A DNA stretch of 15,096 bases from Candidatus Aminicenantota bacterium. GTDB taxonomy: Bacteria; Acidobacteriota; Aminicenantia; UBA2199. Within the stretch, counting starts at the first letter, position 1. Each line of letters begins with the position of its first letter. The stretch spans positions 8,117,697-8,132,792 of the forward strand of contig CP070627.1 of assembly GCA_020355945.1 (NCBI GenBank), read 5' to 3'. The position numbers were made by a program, and so were the translations under genes. The notes beneath the pieces were generated by a model. It did no database searches, had not been told where the DNA came from, and was given only the letters and a program-made list of their open reading frames with translations. Shown piece by piece: positions 3,271 through 15,096 of the stretch.

Positions 3271-3288
3271 CCTTTGTCGCGGCAAAGG
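3271..3288. repeat. Short hairpin just downstream of the kinase-FGE gene
   Basis: CCTTTG (3271-3276) and CAAAGG (3283-3288) form a 6-bp perfect stem with a six-base loop; a T-G pair could extend it to 7 bp with a CGCG loop. It lies 23 bp beyond the stop codon of the minus-strand kinase gene. No T-run follows it in the minus direction, so it is a poor terminator. Its position past a candidate variable region recalls the hairpin found behind DGR variable repeats. Confidence 0.45.
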
Positions 3289-3311
3289 GTAAAATGGTAA
3301 AAGAAAAAAGG

Positions 3312-5543
3312 TTAATTGTCCTGGGAGAGGCGGAAGCCAACGTAGAAGCTGCGAACGGAGGGCTCGCCGCAAACGCGATTTGCACAGCGCAGGCTCACGG
3401 CCTTGACGTCCCAACGGCCGCCGCGCAACACGCGGTCTTTGCCGCTTTTCGGGCCAGTGGGATTCTTGTCCGGGGATGATTGATAATAATTTTCATCATA
3501 CCAATCCCTGCACCACTCCCAGACGTTCCCGGCCATATCCAATAGACCATAGGGCGATGCGCCTTTAGGGTAGGAATCCACAGGCGTGGTTATGTTAGTG
3601 GCAAAATTTGCTAATGTCTCATCAGGTTTCTTTTTTCCCCAAGGATATTTACGACTGCCAGTCCCCCGGGCTGCTTTTTCCCATTGAGCTTCTGTTGGAA
3701 GTTTGAATGTTAATCCTTTTTTCCAAGATAACCACTTACAATATTTATTCACATCATTCCAGGTGACACATACAACCGGATGATTATCTTCCTGTTCAAA
3801 TCCAGGATTTTTCCAATTTATACCTTTTTTTTGCTTCCATTTCTTCCGTATTAATCCGGTCCAGGCATAAGCACCTCCACTGATCTCTGCCTCAGTCACA
3901 TAGCCTATATCGTTAACAAATATTTTAAATTGATTAACTGTAACCTCATACTTTCCTATCCAGTAACCATCCAGGTAGACGGTATGTGTGGGTTTTTCAT
4001 CATTGTAATCATTAGAACCCATTTTAAACTCGCCCGGTGGAATGTATACCATGATGATTCCATCTCCATAATCAGCTTCCATGAAACCCTGTTTGTTTTT
4101 ATAAACTTTTTTGGCTCCCTGTACATGTAGAAAATCTTCATTTTTATCTCGTGGAATTTTCTTTTTTTTGGTAACCGGCCCTGATGGTGGTTTATTATCA
4201 ATTGGCTCAATCCTTTTCTTTTTCACTGGTTTTTGTGTTCTGTTTGAAATCGATTTCAAAGCCACCAGGACTTCTACCATATTTTTCCAGCGTCTTTTCC
4301 TGTCTTTTTCCAGGCATTTTATCACGATATTTCGTAACTCATTGGAAACACCTTCCAATTCATAAGGCTTTTCATTGATGTCTTTGATCTGGTCCTTGTT
4401 TGTAAAGGGTAAGTCACCGCTCAGCAATTGATAAATAGTTACACCCAAGCCCCATAAATCTACTTGATTATTTTCTCTCCCATAGAGGGTGGTTAATTGC
4501 TCAGGAGCCATATAAGGCCACGTTCCTATCCACTGGTGCTCACCTACCAATTCCGTCATAGATAATGTGACCTGGTACGATATGCCAAAATCAAGTATTT
4601 TCACCTGGCCTTCAGGAGTAACCATGATATTTGCTGGTTTAATGTCCCTGTGAATCACATTGTTTTTGTGGGTTTCTTTCAATCCTTGAGCCATCTGCTG
4701 CATGATGTCAATGACTTCGGTTTCTTTAAGTTTTCCTTCTTTGCTTTCCGCCAGTATTTGTTCGAGGCTATTGCCTTCGATATATTCCATCACGATAAAA
4801 TACTGTCCCTGGTGCTCTTCCAATCCCAACACCTTAACGACATTGGGATGTATGATACAGGCTGCGGTGTTTACTTCACTTTTTAAATGTTTAAAGTCAA
4901 GGGGTGAATCGGCAACCCGGGGGGGCACCATTTTAATGGCTTTTTCCTTTTCTTCCAATTTATCCAGGACCTTGAACACCACCCCTTTCCCTCCGCTGCC
5001 CAGCTTTTCCCGGATGACATATTTTCCTAATTGAGTGCCGATTAAATCTTCAGGTTTTTTGTATTTAATAAACGATCGTTCAGCCATCGATACCAAATTA
5101 CTCACGGCTGCGCTGACATTACCGCCCAATTCATCGGCATTTTTGAAAAAGCTGACAATATATTCATTCATCAGCTCATTTCGGAGTCGATCGATCTTTT
5201 GGTGTTCTTCCCCGGTGTCTATATATTCCACTGGCCAGAGAGCTTTTTGGTCCAATAGAAAGATCAGGCAGGGAATACCGGCTTTCCTGGCAGTTTCATA
5301 TTCTAAATGAGTAATGCTTTTATCGTAACCATCGGGAATAAAACCGTATCGCCAGGCAAAGATTCCTACATAAACATCACAACTGCATACGTCTTGTAAA
5401 CATTTTTTAACAGGCTTTTGAGACGCGGCCACATAATCTTCCATGTAAACGGATTGGTGGCCTAAGCGTCGAACGGCTTGAGCCGCTGCTTCCCGCTCAT
5501 TCTTCAAATCAGCGTATGTGGAGGAAATATAGATTCTTGCCAT
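3312..5543 (-). CDS. DUF4062 - Ser/Thr protein kinase - FGE/C-type-lectin-fold fusion; candidate DGR target
   Basis: A 743-residue protein in three parts. Residues 1-115 are DUF4062 (MARIYISSTYADLKNERE, 'YVGIFAWRYGF'), a domain found on STAND NTPases and other conflict-type proteins. Residues 168-430 are a complete Hanks-type kinase: Gly-loop GSGGKG 182-187, Lys204, HRD 298-300, Asn305, DFG 318-320 and an APE motif near 346. A basic Lys/Pro linker (430-470) leads to an FGE-sulfatase/CLec-fold domain (490-743) with 'IPPGEFKMGS', 'LPTEAQWEKAARG', 'DMAGNVWEW' and terminal 'VGFRLS'. The Cys pair expected for formylglycine-generating activity is missing at the equivalent place, so ligand binding is likelier than catalysis. 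No signal peptide or membrane helix is seen, so it is probably cytoplasmic. The start is fixed by the conserved DUF4062 N-terminus and AGGA upstream. The last 100 bp have very different base composition. Confidence 0.9.
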   Translation of the reverse strand: MARIYISSTYADLKNEREAAAQAVRRLGHQSVYMEDYVAASQKPVKKCLQDVCSCDVYVGIFAWRYGFIPDGYDKSITHLEYETARKAGIPCLIFLLDQKALWPVEYIDTGEEHQKIDRLRNELMNEYIVSFFKNADELGGNVSAAVSNLVSMAERSFIKYKKPEDLIGTQLGKYVIREKLGSGGKGVVFKVLDKLEEKEKAIKMVPPRVADSPLDFKHLKSEVNTAACIIHPNVVKVLGLEEHQGQYFIVMEYIEGNSLEQILAESKEGKLKETEVIDIMQQMAQGLKETHKNNVIHRDIKPANIMVTPEGQVKILDFGISYQVTLSMTELVGEHQWIGTWPYMAPEQLTTLYGRENNQVDLWGLGVTIYQLLSGDLPFTNKDQIKDINEKPYELEGVSNELRNIVIKCLEKDRKRRWKNMVEVLVALKSISNRTQKPVKKKRIEPIDNKPPSGPVTKKKKIPRDKNEDFLHVQGAKKVYKNKQGFMEADYGDGIIMVYIPPGEFKMGSNDYNDEKPTHTVYLDGYWIGKYEVTVNQFKIFVNDIGYVTEAEISGGAYAWTGLIRKKWKQKKGINWKNPGFEQEDNHPVVCVTWNDVNKYCKWLSWKKGLTFKLPTEAQWEKAARGTGSRKYPWGKKKPDETLANFATNITTPVDSYPKGASPYGLLDMAGNVWEWCRDWYDENYYQSSPDKNPTGPKSGKDRVLRGGRWDVKAVSLRCANRVCGEPSVRSFYVGFRLSQDN
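3330..3434 (-). other. Candidate DGR variable region at the 3' end of the kinase-FGE gene
   Basis: This segment encodes about residues 704-738, from the VLRGGRW stretch to VGFR. By hand count, 102 nt of it contain 68 G+C and only 10 A on the coding strand, in a gene otherwise rich in A. Codons at the sites that are Asn-rich in known DGR templates are GAC, GTC, AGC, GTT, TGC, GGC, TCC, GTT, AGC, TTC and TAC. Each is reachable from AAC or AAT by changing only A. The constant framework (RGG-W, L-R-C-A-N-R, P, R, VGFR) is intact with the usual spacing. The 3' end (GGCTTCCGCCTCTCCCAGG) is GC-rich, as an IMH (initiation of mutagenic homing) site would be. The template repeat and reverse transcriptase are not in the window, so this is an inference from pattern. 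Confidence 0.5.
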
Positions 5544-5790: not shown

Positions 5791-6192
5791 ATGCCAACAG
5801 TTCAGGTTAAAGCGCAATTATCCACTGATGACTTGCTGCAAGCGGTTAAACAGTTGGACCCATCAGAACTGGAAGGGTTTATCTGGCAAATTATCGCATT
5901 ACACGCACACCGAAAAGCACCAGGTTTATCAAAAGAAGAATCCCAATTACTAATAAAAATTAATCAAGGTGTACCACCTGATATCCAGGAACGTTACGAT
6001 GAACTGATTGCTAAGCGACAGTCAGAGACACTGACTGCTGACGAGTATAATGAATTATTGCGGTTAACCGATCAAATCGAGAAACTGGATGCAGAGCGTG
6101 CGGAATACCTAAAAGAATTGGCTTGTATCCGTCAAACTTCGCTTACTGCACTCATGGAAGAGTTAAACATTCAAACACCTGGTTATGGTTAA
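5791..6192 (+). CDS. Conserved small helical protein of unknown function (133 aa)
   Basis: Acidic, Leu/Glu/Gln-rich and predicted almost fully helical, with no Cys, signal or membrane segment. The N-terminus (MPTVQVKAQLSTDDLLQAVKQL) looks like a short strand then a helix. The centre (KINQGVPPDIQERYDELIAK) and the stretch 'LTADEYNELLRLTDQIEKLD' suggest a helical hairpin or coiled coil. I recall very similar small proteins in filamentous cyanobacteria and some Chloroflexi, annotated only as hypothetical. Its own promoter and a GAGGTG ribosome binding site support this start. It is isolated: divergent from the kinase gene, convergent with the flagellar operon, and bracketed by TTAGCCAC repeats. 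That suggests a horizontally moved unit, which is inference. Confidence 0.7.
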   Translation: MPTVQVKAQLSTDDLLQAVKQLDPSELEGFIWQIIALHAHRKAPGLSKEESQLLIKINQGVPPDIQERYDELIAKRQSETLTADEYNELLRLTDQIEKLDAERAEYLKELACIRQTSLTALMEELNIQTPGYG

Positions 6193-6236
6193 GAAATACC
6201 CCCCGGCTCAACTTAAACAGGCTATTCTAGAAAAAG

Positions 6237-6335
6237 GTGCCAGGCAAAGAGGAGAACCAAAAAAAAAAATTAGCCACGGACGAACACGGATAAACACGGT
6301 TTAAAAAAATGACTCTCTGTGACCTCTGTGGCTAA
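6237..6335. repeat. Dispersed-repeat cluster: GTGCCAGGCAAAGA box and inverted TTAGCCAC ends
   Basis: GTGCCAGGCAAAGA (6237-6250) is an exact copy of 2246-2259. TTAGCCAC (6270-6277) starts a run of CACGG units (CCACGGA, ACACGGA, ACACGG). GTGGCTAA (6328-6335) closes it as an inverted repeat. The closing repeat supplies the TAG stop of the minus-strand gene at 6332. TTAGCCAC-CACGG tracts of this kind recur in many environmental bacterial genomes as I recall. The gap holds no gene that I can support. Confidence 0.5.
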
Positions 6336-7159
6336 ACCTTCCTGGTTAAATAAACATCGATTTTATAATCCCGGGTTTCACCTTTGAGCCATACCGCGTT
6401 TTCCAGGTTATCTATTTTTATCTTGCTGCGGCAAAGACCTTTCAAGAATTCCATAAATTTCACCACAGTCTTTTCCAGTGCCGTGATTTTAATTGATTCC
6501 TCTTTTGAAAGCAAGGCCTCCTCTATTCCCACCTGCAATGGTTTACCCGGGTAATTGTTGGTGAGGATTTCCAGTATCTTTTCTTTATCTTCCAGGTAAA
6601 ATTTGATTAAATACCCGGGGTAAACTTTTGAAAAATATTCTTCGAGGTAGGAGAGATAATCTACGTCATAGAGGGCGATTAAAATAACCCTGCTTTCTAT
6701 ATCACAATCAAAGATGACAAAAGGGAATTCGCTGATAAGTTTAAAGGGAATGTCATCTTTTAATTTGACTTTCAATCGAGGGTCAAGAACGATGAGAGCC
6801 ATGCCAGCTTGCATGGCCAGTACGGCTTTTAATTCCTGTCCAGTAATATATCCGGCTTCCACCAGGATTTCTCCCAGCTTTTTGTTAGAACCGAGCTTTT
6901 GCTGCAAGGCCAGGGTTAATTGTTCTTGGTTAATGAAATTATTTTTTACCAGGAGCCTGCCCAGTTCCACACTGGGTAGGGCTTTCTTAAATCCACACCG
7001 CCTGTCTTCGATGATTCGATCGGCCAGGACGCTGCTGTAACACTTATGACTGCAAAACCATTGATCGTCTTTTTTTTCACCGCACCCCGGCAGTCTTAAT
7101 TTAACGGCAAGGGTATTGATGGTTTTAATGCATTCGGGGTTGGCGCAGGTGATTTTCAT
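6332..7159 (-). CDS. Zinc-ribbon plus MshEN-like (GspE/PilB N-terminal type) protein
   Basis: A 275-residue protein without an ATPase domain. Residues 5-40 carry Cys5, Cys10, Cys36 and Cys40 (also Cys26), with 'WFCSHKCY', looking like a zinc-binding finger. About residues 66-125 contain two tandem helical motifs, 'LGRLLVKNNFINQEQLTLAL' and 'LGEILVEAGYITGQELKAVL', typical of the MshEN domain, which in MshE binds cyclic di-GMP. The first motif lacks the usual Arg/Lys before LG and the Gly after LLV, so binding by that half is doubtful. The remaining 150 residues are unfamiliar. It overlaps the DUF2802-like gene by four bases (ATGA) and has AAGGAG upstream, so it is translationally coupled. It is the last gene of the flagellar operon. 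A role as a c-di-GMP sensor for motility is inference. Confidence 0.7.
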   Translation of the reverse strand: MKITCANPECIKTINTLAVKLRLPGCGEKKDDQWFCSHKCYSSVLADRIIEDRRCGFKKALPSVELGRLLVKNNFINQEQLTLALQQKLGSNKKLGEILVEAGYITGQELKAVLAMQAGMALIVLDPRLKVKLKDDIPFKLISEFPFVIFDCDIESRVILIALYDVDYLSYLEEYFSKVYPGYLIKFYLEDKEKILEILTNNYPGKPLQVGIEEALLSKEESIKITALEKTVVKFMEFLKGLCRSKIKIDNLENAVWLKGETRDYKIDVYLTRKV

Positions 7160-7632
7160 AGTTTCTCCTTTAAAGGTGAACTGAGATACCGCCTCAGTTT
7201 GATTACCAATTCGATCTCTCCCAGCGGGATATTAAGCTTGGGAGCAATCTCTGTCGGGGTAAATCCCTGGTTGACCAGGATCAATATTTTATCAACGGTC
7301 TCTTTGTCCAGCTTATTTTCCTTGAATTTCTTTTCCATCATCCCCAGTTGTTGGGAGACTTTTTCGGCTTCGGATATTAATTTATTTAACACATTTTGTC
7401 TCAGGGTCAACTCTTCTGAAATGTCTGTGCCGACTCGTTCGCTTTTTTCAATAAACTCCAGGAATTGTTTACTGATGGTGGATAAATGCTGCATATTTTT
7501 TCCTATATTGGCAATGCGATGATTGGTTTTAATGTAGAGATGATAAGTCACACCAATAAGAGCGATTAAAATAATTGCTTCAACGATAACAATGATATGA
7601 ATCACATTCATGGTTCCATGTTCATGGGTCAT
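7156..7632 (-). CDS. DUF2802-like membrane-anchored protein
   Basis: A 158-residue protein. A hydrophobic segment at about residues 9-30 (VIHIIVIVEAIILIALIGVT) is followed by a polar helical, probably coiled-coil region. A C-terminal helix-turn-helix-like stretch comes next: 'LVNQGFTPTEIAPKLNIPLG' followed by EIELVIKLRR. The 'G.T..EIA..L.IP.GE..L...L' pattern is that of DUF2802, found beside chemotaxis genes such as cheW in polar flagellates. The exact role is unknown. The start is uncertain: the ATG at 7632 and the one at 7611 (before NVIHII) are both possible, with only weak ribosome sites, and the first codons run into a heptanucleotide-like repeat. It overlaps the downstream gene by four bases. 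Confidence 0.65.
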   Translation of the reverse strand: MTHEHGTMNVIHIIVIVEAIILIALIGVTYHLYIKTNHRIANIGKNMQHLSTISKQFLEFIEKSERVGTDISEELTLRQNVLNKLISEAEKVSQQLGMMEKKFKENKLDKETVDKILILVNQGFTPTEIAPKLNIPLGEIELVIKLRRYLSSPLKEKL

Positions 7633-7641
7633 TGATTTCCA

Positions 7642-7676
7642 TTACCTATCACCCGTCACCCGTTACCCGTCACTCT
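7642..7676. repeat. Tandem heptanucleotide repeat inside the flagellar operon
   Basis: Five 7-bp units: TTACCTA, TCACCCG, TCACCCG, TTACCCG, TCACTCT. They fill the gap between the HDOD and DUF2802-like genes. The unit sequence differs from the TTGGTCA units at 3221 and 12142, but the period is the same. Confidence 0.6.
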
Positions 7677-7678
7677 TC

Positions 7679-8587
7679 CTATTTTTTACTTAGTAATTCT
7701 TTAACCGAATCCCTGATATATGCTGATTCATCATAGATTTCAAAGGTCATACGTTCTACATCGATGGGTTTATTTTTGTAAGCGGCAAGGATGTCCCAGG
7801 CGGGGTCACCGATTATGGCAAAGGCTTTTTTATCCCAGGGGAAGCATAATGCAGCGGCTTTGGTAAACAAGTTAGAAATTCGTACCACCGCGGCAGGCAA
7901 AGCCATAGATTCCAGGCATTTATGGTGATCGCGGATGGCTGCCGTTATTTCCTGCTTAAATCTCCATTTCTCCGCCAAAAACCTACCTACATCCTGATGC
8001 CCTACCCCTAACACCTCTTCTTCGGCTTCATAGTCTACCAATCCCTGGTTCAATTGTTTTTTGACGATTGCTTTGAATTTTTCCGGGTAAAATTGATAGA
8101 TCGCCAGCTTGCCGATATCGTGCAAGAGTCCGGCAGCGTAATAGTCATCACTGGGAGGTAAATTTAACTTTTTTACCAGGGTATTGGTGAAATAGGCAGC
8201 ACCCAGGGAGTGCTCCCAAAAAGTGTTGATATTGAAACCCGGGATATCATCATGGAACCGAAATATTCGTACCACTGAAATTTGTAATATCAAATTCCTG
8301 ATGATGGTGGTTCCCAGGAAAGTAACGGCATTGGTTAAGTTGGTGATTTCCTGTCGTTTACTGTATATGGCACAATTAGAAAGCCTGAGAATCTTAGACA
8401 TCATGGCCTGGTCTTTCATGATTAAATCAGCGATTTTTTTGCTGGAAATAAAGGGATTCTCCAACATCTTATTTAACCGGCTAAATAACACCGGCAAGGT
8501 GGGTAATTGCTTATTGCCGGAAAAAAGTCGGACTAATATCTCTTGTTTTTCCATAGGTCCCCGCCCCTGGCCACCATATCCCATCAT
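7679..8587 (-). CDS. HDOD-domain signalling protein
   Basis: A 302-residue protein starting MMGYGGQGRGPMEKQE. The start at 8587 is chosen because AGGAG lies upstream inside the end of cheR, one base separates it from the cheR stop, and the upstream in-frame extension overlaps cheR. The HDOD domain spans nearly the whole protein: 'LPTLPVLFSRLNKML' and 'KILRLSNCAIYSKRQEITNL' are the typical N-terminal half. It keeps a recognisable HD core, with 'EHSLGAAYFT', 'AAGLLHDIGKLAIYQFYPEKF' and 'GHQDVGRFLAEKWRF'. HDOD proteins act in signalling to motility and c-di-GMP circuits and usually lack phosphodiesterase activity. The retained HD pair means weak metal binding cannot be excluded. The target is unknown. 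Confidence 0.85.
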   Translation of the reverse strand: MMGYGGQGRGPMEKQEILVRLFSGNKQLPTLPVLFSRLNKMLENPFISSKKIADLIMKDQAMMSKILRLSNCAIYSKRQEITNLTNAVTFLGTTIIRNLILQISVVRIFRFHDDIPGFNINTFWEHSLGAAYFTNTLVKKLNLPPSDDYYAAGLLHDIGKLAIYQFYPEKFKAIVKKQLNQGLVDYEAEEEVLGVGHQDVGRFLAEKWRFKQEITAAIRDHHKCLESMALPAAVVRISNLFTKAAALCFPWDKKAFAIIGDPAWDILAAYKNKPIDVERMTFEIYDESAYIRDSVKELLSKK

Positions 8588-8588
8588 G

Positions 8589-9410
8589 CTAATTTCTCCT
8601 ATTATAAATAATTGCAGATGGAAAATGAAGCATTTTAAAATCATTGGAGATGGAAAATAACGATTCCGAATTTCCTAAAATCAAATAACCACCAGGCGCC
8701 ATTTTATCGTAAAAACTATTGATTACCTTCTGCCTGGATTCTTTATCAAAGTAAATTAATACGTACCGGCAAAAGATGACATCAAATTTTGTTTTTATCG
8801 GTATGGAATCCAGTTCCATTAAATTGTACTTTCGGAATTGAATGTTGGTTTTGTATTGATCCTGGAATTTAAGCTTCCCGGGATTCAGCCGGGTGAAATA
8901 CTTTTTTAGATATTCTTTGGGTACGAAGCGGACGGCATAGTCGGTATATTCGCCCCGCATGGCTTTGGCCACCACCAGGTCCGAAATATCAATGCCCCAA
9001 ATGTGATAAGATAACCCGGGAAACTTCTCCCTCAATATGATAGAAATGGTATAGGGCTCTTCACCGGAGGAACATCCGGCGCTTAGTATATTCATGTTGT
9101 TTTTTTCCCGTTGCAGGGTTTCCGGCAAGATATGCTTCTCCAATACTTCCAACTGTGGGGGGTCCCTGAAGAAAAACGTTTCATTAACCGTAATTTCATT
9201 AAACAGGTCGATGGTTTCGGTGCGGATACGTTCGTTTTTGAGGTCCTGCAAGTAGTCGTTAAAATTGCTGTAACGCAGTGATTGAATTCGTCTGCCTACC
9301 TTTTGTTCGATATAATGTTTTCGGGATAAAGGGAAAAACATGCCGGATTTTTTATAGATAAAGTCCTGGAGTTCCATATATTCCGCGTTGGTTAATCCTG
9401 GCGCCTTCAT
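8589..9410 (-). CDS. cheR: Chemotaxis receptor glutamate methyltransferase CheR
   Basis: CheR transfers methyl groups from S-adenosylmethionine to glutamates on chemoreceptors for adaptation, in the cytoplasm at the receptor array. At 273 residues it is full length. The N-terminal helical domain covers about 1-75. The catalytic domain shows NETFFFRD (76-83), the SAM-binding AGCSSGEEPYT (111-121), Asp141 in 'GIDIS', CRYVLIYFD (214-222; the family usually has Asn where Tyr216 sits) and 'GGYLILGNSES'. The gap of 53 bp to fliY is AT-rich with three overlapping TATAAT-like boxes on the minus strand, so an extra internal promoter is possible. No cheB, cheA or receptor gene is in the window. Confidence 0.93.
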   Translation of the reverse strand: MKAPGLTNAEYMELQDFIYKKSGMFFPLSRKHYIEQKVGRRIQSLRYSNFNDYLQDLKNERIRTETIDLFNEITVNETFFFRDPPQLEVLEKHILPETLQREKNNMNILSAGCSSGEEPYTISIILREKFPGLSYHIWGIDISDLVVAKAMRGEYTDYAVRFVPKEYLKKYFTRLNPGKLKFQDQYKTNIQFRKYNLMELDSIPIKTKFDVIFCRYVLIYFDKESRQKVINSFYDKMAPGGYLILGNSESLFSISNDFKMLHFPSAIIYNRRN

Positions 9411-9463
9411 TTGTTTACTTTCCGAACCAATTGATACCTTATTATATTATAAATATTATACCC

Positions 9464-10351
9464 CTAAGCCAATGATTTGATTCGTTCTGCTTTACTTTGT
9501 ACTTCGGTGATACGTACGGCAAAATTGCTGTCGCACACCACTACTTCTCCCCTGGCCACCAATTTTCCGTTAACCAGGACTTCGACGGGGTCCTCCACCA
9601 ATTTTTCCAGTTCAATGATGCTGCCCGGGCCCAATTTCATAATATCGACAAGCCGCATCTCCGTGGTACCGATGCGAACCGTAATGGGGAGTTCGACATC
9701 CAGCAGTAAGTCGATATTGGTGCCTTGATAGTGGTATCCTGGTCCACTGCCAGGAGCGGCGGTGGTCCGGCGTGCTGCTGTTGATGGTTTTGCGTGGGTC
9801 TTGTCGTAGACTCTCGCCGGTTTCCTTTCTGCTTCCGCCCCGGGAAAACCGCGGGGCGTGACCATGACAAACTGGTCCCGGGCTACATCTACTAAATTAA
9901 TGGTACAGTTCCATACCTCAAGTTTCATTTCTCCCATCATGGCCGCGGCATCCATTGATTCAATAAAGGAGATGTTCTTAAATTTCATATCCAGGCCAAA
10001 GTTCTCTTTTATGGGTGCCTGGCAGGCGGAAAACATCTGGTTCACCGCTTCTTCAAAGGCATCCCTGTCATCCGCGCCGATCTCATCTTTAAAGGTATCC
10101 AACCCGATCATCAAATTGGCAATAATAGAAACCAGCTTATTGCTTAAGGCAATGATGATGCGCTGGGATTTATCGTCCCCGTAAGATAAACCGACAAAAG
10201 ATTGAAATTTGCCCAGGACCTTATTCAAATCACTTTTACTTTTCTTTTGCACCGAATCCACCAAGATCTGCACATCTCGTCCCAAAATGGTATGATATAC
10301 GGACGTCCAGTTCTCAACCAATATGTTAATCATCCGCTCTTTATTACTCAT
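9464..10351 (-). CDS. fliY: FliY-type flagellar switch protein: CheC-like phosphatase plus FliN/SpoA domain
   Basis: A 295-residue protein with an N-terminal CheC/CheX-like domain (about 1-165), a Pro/Thr/Ala/Arg linker (165-205), and a C-terminal SpoA (FliN C) domain containing 'VRIGTTEMRLVDIMKLGPGS' and 'FAVRITEVQ'. The CheC active-site pattern D-x3-E-x2-N is present once (Asp97, Glu101, Asn104); I could not place the matching second helix motif. FliY in Bacillus and Thermotoga sits in the switch ring and dephosphorylates CheY-P. The gene overlaps fliM by eight bases, with its AGGGAG ribosome site inside fliM. The window also holds a separate short FliN at 14294, so the ring may use two FliN types. 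Confidence 0.85.
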   Translation of the reverse strand: MSNKERMINILVENWTSVYHTILGRDVQILVDSVQKKSKSDLNKVLGKFQSFVGLSYGDDKSQRIIIALSNKLVSIIANLMIGLDTFKDEIGADDRDAFEEAVNQMFSACQAPIKENFGLDMKFKNISFIESMDAAAMMGEMKLEVWNCTINLVDVARDQFVMVTPRGFPGAEAERKPARVYDKTHAKPSTAARRTTAAPGSGPGYHYQGTNIDLLLDVELPITVRIGTTEMRLVDIMKLGPGSIIELEKLVEDPVEVLVNGKLVARGEVVVCDSNFAVRITEVQSKAERIKSLA

Positions 10352-11369
10352 TTTTAAACTCCCTGGGGATCAAATTGACGATTTGAACGGCCTTTTTTTT
10401 ATCTTTTTTCACTTGATAGGCACTGTATTTTTTTATACCGTTCAACCTGATATTTATTTCATCATCTTTTTTTGTTTCCAGTTTAACCAGGTCACCGGGA
10501 CCCAGTTCCAGTAAATCTTTGATCCTGATGGAGTTGTCGTATATCCCGGCTTCAACAGACATTTTTGTTTTTAACAGGTTTAATTTTATTTTTTTCACCT
10601 CTTCTGCGGAGGTTTTTGCCCGGTGGGCGTACCAATCCCGGGAAAATCGTTTGGCAATTGGTTCCAACATAATTGATGGGATACAGAAATTCATAAACCC
10701 CCTGGCTTCCCCTACTCTCAATTCAAAAACGATTAGTACGACGATTTCATTGGCAGCCACCACCTGGATCGATTGTGGAGAGGTTTCGGCAGCCACAATA
10801 GACATTCTCAGTTTGACGATCTGTTTCCAGGAGTCTTCCAGGTCTTCCAGTATCAGTTTGACTGCCCCCTGGATGAGTGTCCGTTCAATATCGGTGAGGG
10901 TTCGCATACCTTCGCCGAAATCTTCCCCTTTGCCCCCCAATATCTTGTCAATCATGGGGAAGAGAATTTTGGGATTGATTTCCAATACGGCGTTCCCCTC
11001 CAGCGGGTCCATGGCAATGACATTAAAATAGGTGGGGTCCGGCAGCGATAGGATAAACTCCGCATAGGTGAATTGCTCCAGCGAGTAGAGATTGACATCG
11101 ACAAGAGCCCTTAAATAAGCGGATAAGGAGGAGGAAAAGTTACGGGCAAACCGCTCATGCAGGTAATGAAGGGAACGCAGCTGGTCCCTGGATACCCGGT
11201 CCGGCCGGCGGAAATCATAAATAGATACTTTTCTGTCTTTATGGATTTCCTTTTTGTTCTTCCCGGGTTTGATGGTCACTTCTTCGGCAGCCGGTGTTGG
11301 TCCTGTCTCTTCCTGGGAAAACTCCGATAACAGCGCATCAACCTCTTGTTGTGATAATATCTTGGCCAT
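10344..11369 (-). CDS. fliM: Flagellar motor switch protein FliM
   Basis: FliM forms the middle of the C-ring, binds phosphorylated CheY through its N-terminal peptide and passes the signal to FliG. At 341 residues it has normal length. The N-terminus MAKILSQQEVDALLSEFS is the conserved CheY-binding motif. The central CheC-like region includes 'LHYLHERFARNFSSSLSAYL' and 'YSLEQFTYAEFILSLPDPTY'. The C-terminal SpoA domain ('IRIKDLLELGPGDLVKLETK') binds FliN. The ribosome site GAGGAGG lies right on the TGA stop of the upstream sigma gene, nine bases away, so the two are coupled. It overlaps fliY by eight bases. Confidence 0.95.
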   Translation of the reverse strand: MAKILSQQEVDALLSEFSQEETGPTPAAEEVTIKPGKNKKEIHKDRKVSIYDFRRPDRVSRDQLRSLHYLHERFARNFSSSLSAYLRALVDVNLYSLEQFTYAEFILSLPDPTYFNVIAMDPLEGNAVLEINPKILFPMIDKILGGKGEDFGEGMRTLTDIERTLIQGAVKLILEDLEDSWKQIVKLRMSIVAAETSPQSIQVVAANEIVVLIVFELRVGEARGFMNFCIPSIMLEPIAKRFSRDWYAHRAKTSAEEVKKIKLNLLKTKMSVEAGIYDNSIRIKDLLELGPGDLVKLETKKDDEINIRLNGIKKYSAYQVKKDKKKAVQIVNLIPREFKNE

Positions 11370-11378
11370 AATGCCTCC

Positions 11379-12125
11379 TCATAGTACTTCCCTGGTTGGG
11401 ACTCTATTGCGTTGGGCTACTTCGGCCAGTTGGGCCCGCAGCCTCAGGATGGCAGCGGTACGGATTTGAGATATGCGGGACTCGGTTAAATCCAGGACTT
11501 TCCCCACCTCTTTCAGGTTCAAATCGTCCAGGTAGTACATACTCAATACCATTTGTTCCTTTGGGGGAAGTTGGTTTATAAAACCGGCAATCATATCCTC
11601 CATTTCACTCTTTTCCATGATGAGATCCGGGGATGAACTGTGCTCATCCATATAATAATTCAACACTTCTTCATCGGTGATATTGGCTTCATTTTCGCTG
11701 GGCATGCGAAAAACCCCGATTCCCACGCCCCGGGATTCATTGAGGAATTTATGAAATTCCGGCAAAGACATATTTAAGCTGTCAGCTACTTCTTCTTCCT
11801 TTGGCGGGCGTCCCAGTTTTATTTCCAGGGTTTCAAAGGCATGTTCCACCTCTTTGATCTTTTGCCTCAGGCTTCGTGATGCCCAATCCAGGTTTCGCAG
11901 CTCATCCAGTATCGCGCCCCTGATGCGCAGCGAGGCATAGGTAGCAAAGCGGGTTCCCTTCGAGGCATCATACCGTTCCACCGCATCGATCAACCCCAGG
12001 ATTCCCGTATGCACCAGGTCCTCCAGCTCAATCCCCGAGGGTATACGGGCATACAGTTTGGAGGCAATAATTTTGACGATGTGCAGATGGTCCAGTATCC
12101 GTTTTTCAAACTCCGCTTTATTCAT
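11379..12125 (-). CDS. fliA: Flagellar RNA polymerase sigma factor (FliA/WhiG, sigma-28 type)
   Basis: Directs RNA polymerase to late flagellar and chemotaxis promoters. From the start chosen here it has 248 residues, usual for the family. Region 2 shows 'YARIPSGIELEDLVHTGILG', 'RYDASKGTRFATYASLRIRG' and 'ILDELRNLDWASRSLR'. Region 3 has 'LGRPPKEEEVADSLNMSLPE' and region 4 has 'LPPKEQMVLSMYYLDDLNLK' then 'ESRISQIRTAAILRLR'. The in-frame ATG at 12149 lies in a heptanucleotide repeat; the ATG at 12125 is preferred because AGGG lies eight bases upstream and the protein then begins MNKAEFEKR. It sits between flhG and fliM. No anti-sigma flgM is seen in the window. Confidence 0.93.
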   Translation of the reverse strand: MNKAEFEKRILDHLHIVKIIASKLYARIPSGIELEDLVHTGILGLIDAVERYDASKGTRFATYASLRIRGAILDELRNLDWASRSLRQKIKEVEHAFETLEIKLGRPPKEEEVADSLNMSLPEFHKFLNESRGVGIGVFRMPSENEANITDEEVLNYYMDEHSSSPDLIMEKSEMEDMIAGFINQLPPKEQMVLSMYYLDDLNLKEVGKVLDLTESRISQIRTAAILRLRAQLAEVAQRNRVPTREVL

Positions 12126-12141
12126 CCTTTTTTCCCTGTCT

Positions 12142-12176
12142 TTGGTCATTGGTCATTGGTTATTGGTTATTATCTA
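12142..12176. repeat. Tandem heptanucleotide repeat between flhG and the sigma factor gene
   Basis: Units TTGGTCA, TTGGTCA, TTGGTTA, TTGGTTA, TTATCTA in the gap between the flhG stop and the sigma factor start. It is the reverse-complement family of the repeat at 3221-3255. It supplies the false upstream ATG of the sigma ORF at 12149. Confidence 0.7.
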
Positions 12177-12178
12177 TT

Positions 12179-13030
12179 TTAAAAATCTAACCTGGATTCT
12201 TTGTCCTTCCCGGTTTTCATTTGAGACACCCGGTCAATGACTGCCTTTGACAATTCCAGGTAGTCCTTTGTAACGGGACTATCGGGAAACTTTTCCACCA
12301 CCGGCCGTTGGAATTTAATGGCCTCCACCAAATGGTCATCCGTCCGGATACAGCCCAGGTAATGAAGTTCCTTGTTGAGGAACTTTTTAACGGCCCGGGA
12401 GATTTTAAGGAAGACTTCGGAGGCTTCTGCTTCATCTTCCACCATATTGACGATCACGGAAATGGTTTTAAAGGCATCCAGTTCGGTGACCACCTTTACC
12501 ACTGCATAGGCATCCACGATAGAGGTATTTTCCGGGCTCACCACCAGGTACACCTCATCGGCGGCCAATAAAAGCGAAATAACATTATCGGAAATACCGG
12601 CAGCGGTATCAATGATTAATAACTCCACCATTTTCTCTAATTTTTTTAGCTCTTTGTACAATAGAATTTCCTGGTATTCGGTTAAATGGGTCAGGGATTG
12701 CACACCGGAACTGGCCGGGATGATTAAGAGTTCGTTTTTGCTGATGAGTATTTCTTCAAGGGCAGCGGTATCTTTCAACAGGTCGGACATATCCAGTTCA
12801 GGTTCGATGCCCAACAGGATATCGATGTTTCCCAATCCATAATCGGCATCCAGGATAGCCACTTTCATGTCCATCCGTGCCAGGGCCACCCCCAAATTCA
12901 CCACCACATTGGTTTTACCCACCCCTCCTTTACCGGAAGTTATGGCGATTTTCTTCAACCTGGAAACATTCCCGATCACATTTTCATTCAATTTATATAA
13001 TGTCGAAACCTGGTTCTCATTGGTACTCAT
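12179..13030 (-). CDS. flhG: FlhG (YlxH/FleN) MinD-like ATPase controlling flagellar number
   Basis: A P-loop ATPase that activates the FlhF GTPase and limits flagellar number, acting at the membrane as an ATP dimer. From the start chosen it has 283 residues. The deviant Walker A is GKGGVGKT (33-40). The switch region DADYGLGNID (61-70) and Walker B 'LLIIDTAAG' (Asp141) are clear. The short N-terminal tail (ENQVSTLYKL) could be the variant of the DQA-x-x-LR helix that stimulates FlhF; this is inferred. The start at 13030 is supported by AAGGAG six bases upstream. The longer ORF to 13111 lies inside flhF and lacks a ribosome site. It overlaps flhF by 14 bases. Confidence 0.93.
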   Translation of the reverse strand: MSTNENQVSTLYKLNENVIGNVSRLKKIAITSGKGGVGKTNVVVNLGVALARMDMKVAILDADYGLGNIDILLGIEPELDMSDLLKDTAALEEILISKNELLIIPASSGVQSLTHLTEYQEILLYKELKKLEKMVELLIIDTAAGISDNVISLLLAADEVYLVVSPENTSIVDAYAVVKVVTELDAFKTISVIVNMVEDEAEASEVFLKISRAVKKFLNKELHYLGCIRTDDHLVEAIKFQRPVVEKFPDSPVTKDYLELSKAVIDRVSQMKTGKDKESRLDF

Positions 13031-14276
13031 GGGTTTCTCCTTTTTTATTATTACTTTTATTATAGCCCGGAAACACTCTGCGGGCAAATGTCCCGGGATG
13101 CGCAATTTCAATATCTTCCGGGACCCGCTGACCCGTGGTAAAATATGCCGCTGGAATGTCGGTGCGCATCTTTAGATTAAATAAATTTCCCAACGATAAG
13201 GATTCATCAATCTTGCTGAAAATGAATTTATCCGGTTGAAAAATGTTGAACTTTTCATAGGTCATATATAAATCCGCTGTTTTGGTGGGGGCACTGAGGA
13301 TTAAATAAACTTCTTTTTCTTGCGCTGGCACAGCGGATAAGTGCTTTTCCATAATCAACAATCCCTTTTTATCATTGGGGCTCCTGCCTGTGGTGTCTAC
13401 AAAAATCAAATCAAAATTCGTCAATTTATCTAACCGAAATCGCATTTCCCTGTCATTAAATACGGAATAGAAGGGGACATCAAGAATATCGGCATAAGTT
13501 TTCAAATGAGCTTCGGCACCGATGCGGTAACTATCAATGGTTATCAATGCCGCTTTTTTGGATTCCATCAATTTAAAATAGGAACATAATTTGGCAATGG
13601 TGGTGGTTTTACCTGATCCGGTGGGTCCCACCATAACCACCACTTTTCGTTTTCCCTGTTCCGGTTTTAACGGGGATGGCAGGGAAATGGAAGAAGTGAT
13701 GAGATTAAACAGCCGTTCTTTGATGGAGGGTAAGTCGCTGATGTTATCGGCATCGGCCTGGTACTGTAAGGTTTGGATGAGTTTTTCCGACAGTTTCCCT
13801 TCAACACCACTTTCCACCAGGTCCACGTAGAGATCGAAAAATATACCTTTGAATTGTTTATAACCTTCAAAGCCGTTGGTGGTGGCATATAAGAATTTTT
13901 TGATTTCCGCCACCTCCCGGGTTAACGGCCCCAGTTCATTTTTTATATCCGACAGGTCCTTCACTGCCTGTTTGTTAACGGTAATTTCCGGGTGGGCCTT
14001 CATCTTGCTAAAAACTTCCTCTTTCCGCTGCTGCACCTTCCCGGGACTGTAATATTCGTAGGTTTTGTTGAGCAGTGCCGGTGATATATCCGCAGGGTCG
14101 GCCTTAGCAGGGTCCACTGCTGCCGTGACCTCAATCAACTCCACATTGGTTAGGTTTAACTTCCCCCGCTTCACCACCTTTTTCCGGGACAAAATACAGG
14201 CATCCTTTCCCAGGTCTTTCTTGATTAGAGGTATTGCATCCTCCAGGTGTTTAACTAAATATTTCTTAATTATCAT
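13017..14276 (-). CDS. flhF: FlhF, SRP-type GTPase for flagellar placement
   Basis: Recruits early flagellar parts to their site at the cell pole or envelope and is paired with FlhG. It has 419 residues. The N-terminal basic domain begins MIIKKYLVKHLEDAIPLIKK and is followed by a poorly conserved linker (40-130) and a helical N domain (130-205). The G domain has GPTGSGKT (217-224), 'ITIDSYRIGA' (247-254), DTTGR (294-298), SKID in place of TKxD (354-357) and TTGQ (380-383). It lies 17 bp after fliN, with only a weak ribosome site (GGTG), so it may depend on coupled translation. FlhF homologues of this length are typical. Confidence 0.95.
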   Translation of the reverse strand: MIIKKYLVKHLEDAIPLIKKDLGKDACILSRKKVVKRGKLNLTNVELIEVTAAVDPAKADPADISPALLNKTYEYYSPGKVQQRKEEVFSKMKAHPEITVNKQAVKDLSDIKNELGPLTREVAEIKKFLYATTNGFEGYKQFKGIFFDLYVDLVESGVEGKLSEKLIQTLQYQADADNISDLPSIKERLFNLITSSISLPSPLKPEQGKRKVVVMVGPTGSGKTTTIAKLCSYFKLMESKKAALITIDSYRIGAEAHLKTYADILDVPFYSVFNDREMRFRLDKLTNFDLIFVDTTGRSPNDKKGLLIMEKHLSAVPAQEKEVYLILSAPTKTADLYMTYEKFNIFQPDKFIFSKIDESLSLGNLFNLKMRTDIPAAYFTTGQRVPEDIEIAHPGTFARRVFPGYNKSNNKKGETHEYQ

Positions 14277-14293
14277 ATCAACACCACTTCAAG

Positions 14294-14611
14294 TTACACC
14301 TTCCTGGGATCATTGATTTCGGTAATCCTCACCGCAAAGGTATCATCCGGTATGGCAACTTCCCCTTTGGCAAAAAACGTATCCTCCAGGTAGATCGACA
14401 AGCTCTCACCCACGCGTTGATTCAACACCAGCAGGGAACCCGGTTCAAGGCCCAGCAGTTCCCCTAAGATTACCTTTTTCTTACCCATCAGCACATTTAC
14501 CCGTATGGGAATCTCAACAAAATCCTCCAATTCTTTAATGGCTTGATCAAAGCTTTTTTGGTAGTCTTCCAGGTTACTGGTTTCGGAAATCCCGATTTTA
14601 TCCGGTTTCAT
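14294..14611 (-). CDS. fliN: Flagellar switch protein FliN (SpoA domain)
   Basis: A 105-residue FliN. About 30 N-terminal residues are variable, followed by one SpoA domain: 'VEIPIRVNVLMGKKKVILGE', 'LLGLEPGSLLVLNQRVGESL', 'FFAKGEVAIPDDTFAVRITE'. It would form the lower C-ring with FliM. A GAGGTG ribosome site (14619-14624, minus strand) precedes the ATG. It follows fliL by 40 bp and is separated from fliM and fliY by flhF, flhG and the sigma gene, which is not the usual order. A second SpoA protein is encoded at 9464. Confidence 0.9.
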   Translation of the reverse strand: MKPDKIGISETSNLEDYQKSFDQAIKELEDFVEIPIRVNVLMGKKKVILGELLGLEPGSLLVLNQRVGESLSIYLEDTFFAKGEVAIPDDTFAVRITEINDPRKV

Positions 14612-14636
14612 GGTTCAACACCTCGACACTCAGTCC

Positions 14637-14657
14637 TGATTGATTCATTGCTCATTG
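14637..14657. repeat. Short degenerate heptanucleotide tract at the end of fliL
   Basis: TGATTGA, TTCATTG, CTCATTG: only the last two units are close. The tract covers the TGA stop of fliL (14652-14654). It may be a decayed member of the same 7-bp repeat class as those at 3221, 7642 and 12142, but two units could arise by chance. Confidence 0.3.
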
Positions 14658-15096
14658 CATTAAAAATTTGGTTTGCAGTACTTCAACCACGGGTTCCACT
14701 CCCATTAATTCTTTAAGGATTTCGTTCACTCGCATTTGAATCTCTTCGAACAGGGTAATCTTACCGGCTGTACCTTTTAACTCTTTGTAGCTTTTGGCGG
14801 AAATAGTCATGAAAATGTCATGCCTGATTTTAGCTATGATGAGTTCATTCTCCTTTATCCCGGGTACCAGGCTTTTATCGTTGAGAACCAGGTTTAATAC
14901 GCATTCCACATACCTTCTGCCAAAGGGATCATCGAGGTTTACAGTGAAGGTTTCTAAAGGTAAAAACCCGAGTTCTTTTTTTTCTTCGCCGGTGCTTATC
15001 CCTATTCCCGGGCTGGAGTTTTCTCCACCTGGTTTTGTCCCGGTTTCCGTTGGCATCACCTGATCGCTCTTTGCTTCTCCGGCGGATGACATTCTC
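14652..15096 (-). CDS. fliL: FliL, flagellar basal-body stator-associated protein, N-terminus outside the window
   Basis: FliL surrounds or supports the MotA/MotB stator at the inner membrane. The frame continues past the last visible ATG (15092) to the window edge, and no membrane helix is visible, so the N-terminal anchor must lie beyond it. A Gly/Pro/Ser/Lys-rich linker is followed by the periplasmic domain: 'LGFLPLETFTVNLDDPFGRR', 'IIAKIRHDIFMTISAKSYKE', 'RVNEILKELMGVEPVVEVLQ', ending TKFLMQ. These match FliL in order and spacing. It is the first visible gene of the operon and is followed after 40 bp by fliN. Confidence 0.9.
   Translation of the reverse strand, partial: RMSSAGEAKSDQVMPTETGTKPGGENSSPGIGISTGEEKKELGFLPLETFTVNLDDPFGRRYVECVLNLVLNDKSLVPGIKENELIIAKIRHDIFMTISAKSYKELKGTAGKITLFEEIQMRVNEILKELMGVEPVVEVLQTKFLMQ

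Follow-up and report, generated by a model that had tools for sequence, protein, structure and literature searches.

A DUF4062-kinase-FGE protein of Candidatus Aminicenantota with a probable retroelement-diversified C-terminal tail

Diversity-generating retroelements (DGRs) that diversify kinase proteins and proteins with a formylglycine-generating enzyme (FGE) domain are already known, as are DGR targets located away from the reverse transcriptase (RT). In cyanobacteria, according to the available part of one study, remote targets carry a C-terminal C-type lectin (CLec) variable region (VR) on a putative Ser/Thr kinase and occur as genome-scattered paralogs at a distance from the RT (PMC7517822). 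In Thiohalocapsa PB-PSB1, DGR-diversified CLec sensors, two of them with FGE, are joined to TIR, NACHT, kinase and metallophosphatase conflict domains; some loci are incomplete and in-trans diversification is considered by the authors, and DUF4062 is not named among the target domains in the portion of the text available (PMC10907252). A 2026 preprint, available in part, reports that DUF4062 itself is a family of TIR-like NADases employed in defence against phages, among them the antiphage NADase Swarozyc (PMC13174449). Here we describe a gene that brings these modules together, found in a stretch of 15,096 nucleotides (hereafter the window; contig CP070627.1, positions 8,117,697 to 8,132,792) from a Candidatus Aminicenantota bacterium. 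Its 3' end is very probably the VR of a remote DGR target, and its product would be a hypervariable receptor kinase, perhaps of immune function. The window gene differs from the cyanobacterial kinase-CLec targets in its phylum, its N-terminal DUF4062 domain and its FGE-type CLec domain (compared with PMC7517822 as far as available), and from Thiohalocapsa PB-PSB1 in its DUF4062 head. It shares with Swarozyc a DUF4062 domain that is detectable by profile against PDB entry 10wc; the auxiliary domain of the Swarozyc protein KpSwz is described in the available text as contacting the phage portal, whereas the window protein has a kinase and a hypervariable FGE domain instead (PMC13174449). The parts of the gene are as follows.

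3312 to 5543, minus strand: gene for the DUF4062-Ser/Thr kinase-FGE protein, 743 aa (open reading frame, ORF; Pfam DUF4062 2.3e-25, Pkinase 5.2e-55, FGE-sulfatase 3.8e-62)
5289 to 5537, minus strand: DUF4062 domain, aa 3-85, TIR-like, candidate effector (Pfam and PDB profile matches)
4284 to 5021, minus strand: protein kinase domain, aa 175-420, with K204, HRD 298-300 and DFG 318-320 (Pfam)
3327 to 4052, minus strand: FGE-sulfatase or C-type-lectin-type domain, aa 498-739
3330 to 3434, minus strand: probable VR, codons 704-738 of 743, A-depleted and GC-rich (composition, alignment of kin, template comparison)
3321 to 3341, minus strand: conserved 3' end of the VR, VGFRLSQ, the place expected for IMH, which we take to be the term for the element at the 3' end of a VR (comparison of templates and targets in kin)
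3271 to 3311, minus strand: T/C-rich stretch directly past the stop codon that contains TTTTACC repeats as well as a 9-nt inverted repeat, tentatively assigned

A close counterpart of a template was found in a related genome. When the FliM encoded in the window was compared with 34 genomes of the family, the top score fell in genome G010 (78% identity at full length), with two fragments in G001 at 81% and 77%. G010 is a 10.4-Mb Candidatus Aminicenantes genome that carries a DUF4062-kinase-FGE gene 66% identical to that of the window. When a predicted template peptide was searched against the 34 genomes, a template-like copy was retrieved, again in G010 (L164, G010:C733:5576-5695; 83% identity, E 1.5e-16); it belongs to a 67-codon frame situated at the end of its contig. 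Over 105 nt, the window VR mismatches L164 at 19 of 26 A positions and at 10 of 79 others (p 1.5e-8), an apparent bias towards adenine that is not exclusive, as would be expected across species. The kinase relative in G010 itself mismatches L164 at 16/26 A and 8/79 non-A positions. In a 120-nt comparison against L164, the Fisher p was below 0.005 for the window and five of six other VRs, L165 being the exception (p 0.07). Six other templates from kin were tried as the window template and were worse, with 17-35 non-A mismatches of 74-85 as against 10/79 for L164. Metagenomes hold more template-like short ORFs, of which P0123, judged by eye, looks closest to the window; its peptide has Glu and Asp opposite window codons GTG and GGC, which would each be a single A change away if the P0123 codons are GAG and GAC. 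A search of viral contigs with one template pattern gave no matches.

The same sites are hypervariable among homologs. A protein search with the FGE part gave 7,877 matches, and kin were taken from the best 120, all 28 with at least 62% identity to the window being aligned. Among these best 120, P0010, P0015, P0016, P0023, P0027, P0044 and P0054 have the same architecture as the window protein, others are headed by TIR (for example P0024, P0053 and P0063, the last from Candidatus Aminicenantes), and P0101 has a trypsin-like domain. P0053 (TIR-FGE) and P0054 (DUF4062-kinase-FGE), with VRs that differ, are listed with the same longest contig of 11,329 bases and may therefore adjoin on one metagenome contig. 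In the 28 kin, identity with the window protein is 67-88% over FGE residues 500-703, and the 15 framework sites of the tail match the window at 10-15 positions (13/14 in one kin protein), so that the CLec/FGE framework is intact, as a reading of the DNA made earlier from the sequence alone had held. The 14 variable sites of the tail match at just 0-4.

The main test of hypervariation used 21 proteins (the window and 20 kin). P0010, the closest relative in the alignment, was left out because it departs from the VR framework past residue 729 into unrelated sequence, probably through a frame change; seven proteins whose tails begin with RVQR were excluded once the sharing of letters among them had been seen. 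Across the 210 pairs, identity was 12.8% at the ten sites that are Asn in templates of kin and 71.7% in the rest of the domain. No NNY codon specifies K, M, Q, E or W, and A-only changes from AAY do not lead to them. These residues occupied 2 of 210 positions at the ten sites, compared with 118 of 398 at 19 FGE positions outside them whose entropy exceeds 2 bits (p 2e-22, a guide only, since the proteins are related). With all 29 proteins the counts were 7/290 and 219/637, and within the RVQR group alone 5/70 and 11/35. This scarcity, together with the hypervariation, fits adenine mutagenesis of AAY codons and not ordinary selection. The window codons at the ten sites (GAC, GTC, AGC, AAT, GTT, TGC, GTT, AGC, TTC and TAC) all end in C or T. 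The proposal that the variable codons derive from AAC or AAT by A-only changes fits these ten sites and fails at AAG (714), GTG (716) and GAG (727), for which another template codon is needed.

The VR also stands out in composition. Codons 704-738, RVLRGGRWDVKAVSLRCANRVCGEPSVRSFYVGFR, hold 71 G+C and 10 A in 105 nt, and codon-aligned 102-nt segments at the VR hold 68-69 G+C and 10 A, the lowest A of any such segment in the gene; the coordinates, the strand and the count first given for this tail (10 A and 68 G+C in about 102 nt) thus proved accurate. The gene is A-rich elsewhere, as had been stated, with 34.6% A upstream of the VR, at which frequency the probability of 10 or fewer A in 105 is 3e-9. 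None of 100,000 random draws of 35 codons from the gene had as few as 10 A or as many as 71 G+C. When the same peptide was recoded with the codon usage of the gene, 20.0 +/- 2.7 A and 56.3 +/- 3.1 G+C were obtained, and because 0 of 20,000 recodings were as extreme as the VR by either measure, the peptide sequence does not account for the island. The GC-rich tail is real, and the GC richness comes only partly from lost A: L164 is already 60% G+C (63/105), which gives the island the look of a template framework that was imported.

Complete DGRs are present in the family. An RT family was matched in 11 of the 34 genomes, in 10 of them above the cut-off, and of the 27 RT loci, 13 were read, yielding GNLTSQ, which we take as a sign of DGR RTs, together with Y[VM]DD in five (G007, G010, two in G012, and G036). 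Contigs L109, L111 and L112 each carry an RT, Avd, a template and a target, that of L112 being truncated by the contig start, and all three Avd proteins score above the NCBIfam DivGenRetAVD cut-off. Mismatches between template and target fell at 16/26 A and 0/79 non-A positions in L112, at 14/20 and 10/20 A and 0/85 non-A in the two pairs of L111, and at template A in all eight cases within a 60-nt stretch of L109; in a further locus, L167, the two pairs differed at 17/26 and 21/26 A and 3/79 non-A positions. By Pfam (two targets scanned), the target is NACHT-FGE in L109 and calcineurin-like phosphoesterase-NACHT-FGE in L111. Complete DGRs with FGE targets in kin indicate that the lineage owns DGRs that diversify this same domain.

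Several neighbors of these loci are worth recording. L167 (G010:C472) is a degenerate DGR with a template, Avd, two large FGE targets and an RT remnant of 127 aa. The phosphoesterase-NACHT-FGE target at L111 2515-5874, which belongs to a complete DGR, matches the PADLOC candidate defence model PDC-S60 (5e-36). An HRDC-domain protein (L111 296-799; Pfam 1.1e-20) immediately precedes Avd and RT, and an ORF judged similar by eye takes the equivalent position in L112 (1973-2473); the HRDC-domain protein is possibly an extra DGR part. The DUF4062-kinase-FGE relative of G010 (L128) has a NACHT-LRR protein just upstream (5902-8193) and a second FGE target just downstream.

The predicted fold is that of known DGR targets. 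An AlphaFold2 model of the FGE domain (64 sequences) matches three solved DGR variable proteins (2y3c, 1yu3 and 5vf4), and places the VR at the 3' end of an ORF with a C-type lectin fold, as in DGR targets; a model of the full protein from 8 sequences was unusable (pLDDT, the predicted confidence score, 33.5). Treponema denticola variable protein 1 (2y3c), presumably a DGR target, is a 278-residue chain, too short for a kinase and DUF4062 part. Against a viral fold library there were 11 matches with E <=0.001; most of them were FGE-like or tail-fibre proteins, and they were not used as evidence. Residue numbers in human FGE were taken from PDB titles. Cys336 and Cys341, which we take to be its catalytic pair, align with window Val713, a variable site with Cys in 0/29 proteins, and with Ala715 (Ala in 27/29). 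With both cysteines replaced, in which it differs from formylglycine-generating enzymes such as 1y1e, the window domain is probably a non-enzymatic binding scaffold, judging from the alignment. An active formylglycine-generating enzyme joined to a kinase, which the strong Pfam and fold matches to FGE might suggest, is for the same reason very improbable.

That the tail is a DGR variable region, as the sequence-only reading proposed, is thus supported by hypervariation within the NNY alphabet, A-biased mismatches to the G010 template, DGRs in the family and matches of the FGE model. A number of observations weigh against this interpretation or parts of it. The window contains no RT, Avd or template repeat, in agreement with what had been noted earlier: a Pfam scan of 17 ORFs in the window matched neither RT nor Avd families, and the best non-self match to the VR keeps 24 of 105 mismatches that template A does not explain. 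L164 is a template-like copy from another species, to which the 10/79 non-A mismatches remain, and no RT that might use it was recognised by eye among the ORFs of its 5.7-kb contig. The seven RVQR proteins (P0044, P0054, P0056, P0073, P0075, P0084 and P0086), a quarter of the 28 kin, share letters at the variable sites (pair identity 44%), so not all members undergo diversification; by their sequences this group is probably not diversified, or frozen. Two further points, concerning the NADase head and the side of the membrane, are taken up below.

Some of these observations would be accommodated by an orphan or fossil VR, in which a past DGR made the tail and the template or RT was then lost, leaving the sequence fixed. 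The window without DGR machinery, the misfit of AAG 714, GTG 716, GAG 727 and the 10/79 non-A sites to the template from kin, the fixed look of the RVQR group, and L167 of G010, with template and Avd but just a 127-aa RT remnant, all speak for it. Drift, however, would blur a composition island that is still sharp, and the window framework departs from a foreign template at only those 10/79 sites, so we regard this explanation as rather unlikely. Since the window yielded neither an RT nor Avd nor a template, action in trans is proposed, and it is likelier than an orphan. Ordinary fast evolution of an FGE ligand surface by positive selection or recombination of paralogs, with no DGR involved, is improbable: FGE domains are widespread, and the template-type peptide was matched in 29 of the 34 family genomes, mostly small and with no DGR-type RT seen, but K, M, Q, E and W are nearly missing at the template-Asn sites while free at other variable FGE sites, mismatches to the template favor adenine, and the framework between the hypervariable codons is intact. 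We give next to no credence to a GC-rich end that arose by recombination or chance and is functionally irrelevant. The template-like copy is GC-rich too, so GC alone is no proof; still, none of the 100,000 codon draws reproduced the composition, the pattern at the codon level recurs across kin, and the residue-alphabet test refutes such an artefact as a full account.

For diversification by a remote DGR, we propose that a DGR reverse transcriptase, acting together with Avd, would copy an A-rich template elsewhere in the genome (a 9.1-Mb contig), that the A's of the template would be misread, and that the cDNA would replace the tail of about 105 bp as far as its GFRL[C/S]Q end. This would randomise some 10-14 residues towards the C-terminus of the FGE/C-lectin domain, with kinase and DUF4062 kept constant. 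The hypervariable FGE tail might then act as a sensor that binds an antigen or partner, the kinase relaying or gating the signal, and the TIR-like DUF4062 would be the likely effector, perhaps through NAD+ depletion. We infer that the machinery is present in the genome of the window, that it is currently active, and that the protein is a cytoplasmic antigen sensor with an effector output. A hypervariable sensor gating kinase and DUF4062 is suggested by analogy with the DGR targets of Thiohalocapsa (PMC10907252), the kinase-CLec targets of cyanobacteria (PMC7517822) and the conflict systems of PMC7159879.

At the 3' end, VGFRLSQ is followed by QHN in the four nearest kin templates and mostly by QDN in targets. 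A T/C-rich tract bearing TTTTACC or TTTACCC repeats is present past 6 of 14 VR-type target ends in the window and the DGR-bearing genomes (window 3271-3311, L111, L112, and L168 and L169, which are near-duplicates), a count that leaves out L156 and two L170 ends, not clearly VR-type and all without the tract. One of seven template copies has a single match, and the background is 0.04 per 100 nt per strand. The tract may possibly, though weakly, represent a target-recognition mark. A hairpin past the VR was rejected: its 6-bp stem in the window was equalled or bettered by 26% of 500 random window stretches, and it was therefore given no weight.

The kinase residues K204, HRD 298-300 and DFG 318-320, which we take to be its catalytic motifs, are unchanged in 8/8 sequences (window and 7 kin). 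A DUF4062 profile of the window and 3 kin matches PDB entries for TEP1 (11gz, 1.2e-6) and KpSwz (10wc, 7e-4). HMMER pairs a Glu of KpSwz (chain position 82, inferred to be Glu97) with window His79, which makes NADase activity unsure; Glu81, two residues further, was kept in 13/13 DUF4062 motifs read (15 of 30 loci yielded a frame, 2 of those without the motif).

The earlier description of the protein as cytoplasmic agrees with a simple hydropathy scan of the window protein, in which no membrane-type stretch appears (best 19-residue mean 1.06), and does not extend to the G010 relative. Six kin of the same architecture (P0015 to P0054) likewise have none (0.98-1.30), and P0010 reaches 1.37. Such a stretch lies between kinase and FGE in the G010 relative (L128 8860-11103, 2.66) and in P0088 (2.88), and near the N-terminus in P0101 and the L132 protein (8730-9716). 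A TIR-internal stretch of P0075 and P0086 passes the hydropathy cut-off and was not taken as a membrane segment. From these profiles, some kin may have an outward-facing sensor, an arrangement that fits an intracellular phage sensor less well, and FGE sensors seem to serve on either side of the membrane. The phage-sensor reading is limited by these stretches, and we slightly lowered our estimate for a wider idea, put forward tentatively and as doubtful: a repertoire of immune receptors in which swappable heads (DUF4062 NADase with kinase, TIR, trypsin-like protease) are joined to a single type of hypervariable FGE sensor, and a small set of common templates serves to rewrite that sensor in trans. 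Abortive-infection receptors would then undergo an antibody-like diversification encoded in the genome, and NAD+ depletion would be one output.

Elsewhere in the window, positions 7679-15092 (minus strand) hold a motility-type cluster unconnected with the VR, in which Pfam recognises HDOD, CheR, FliM, FliMN_C (three ORFs), sigma-70, a ParA/MinD-type protein, an SRP54-type GTPase and FliL.

In the literature found, a DUF4062 head and an Aminicenantes lineage for DGR targets appear to be new. The literature searched, with supplements and most subscription papers outside its scope, gave no joint mention of DUF4062 with diversity-generating retroelement or with formylglycine-generating, and no joint treatment in main text of Aminicenantes with diversity-generating retroelement; kinase, Acidobacteri and Aminicenantes are all absent from the main text of PMC8144416. 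If the interpretation is true, a domain recently reported as a phage-triggered NADase, a kinase and a retroelement-diversified sensor stand on one chain, targeted hypermutation is tied to a known cell-suicide chemistry, and what DGR receptors recognise and do becomes testable on a single protein. The finding would also place multi-target, probably in-trans use of DGRs in large-genome Aminicenantes, where a protein of possibly immune type would owe to a DGR a recognition surface that can be altered.
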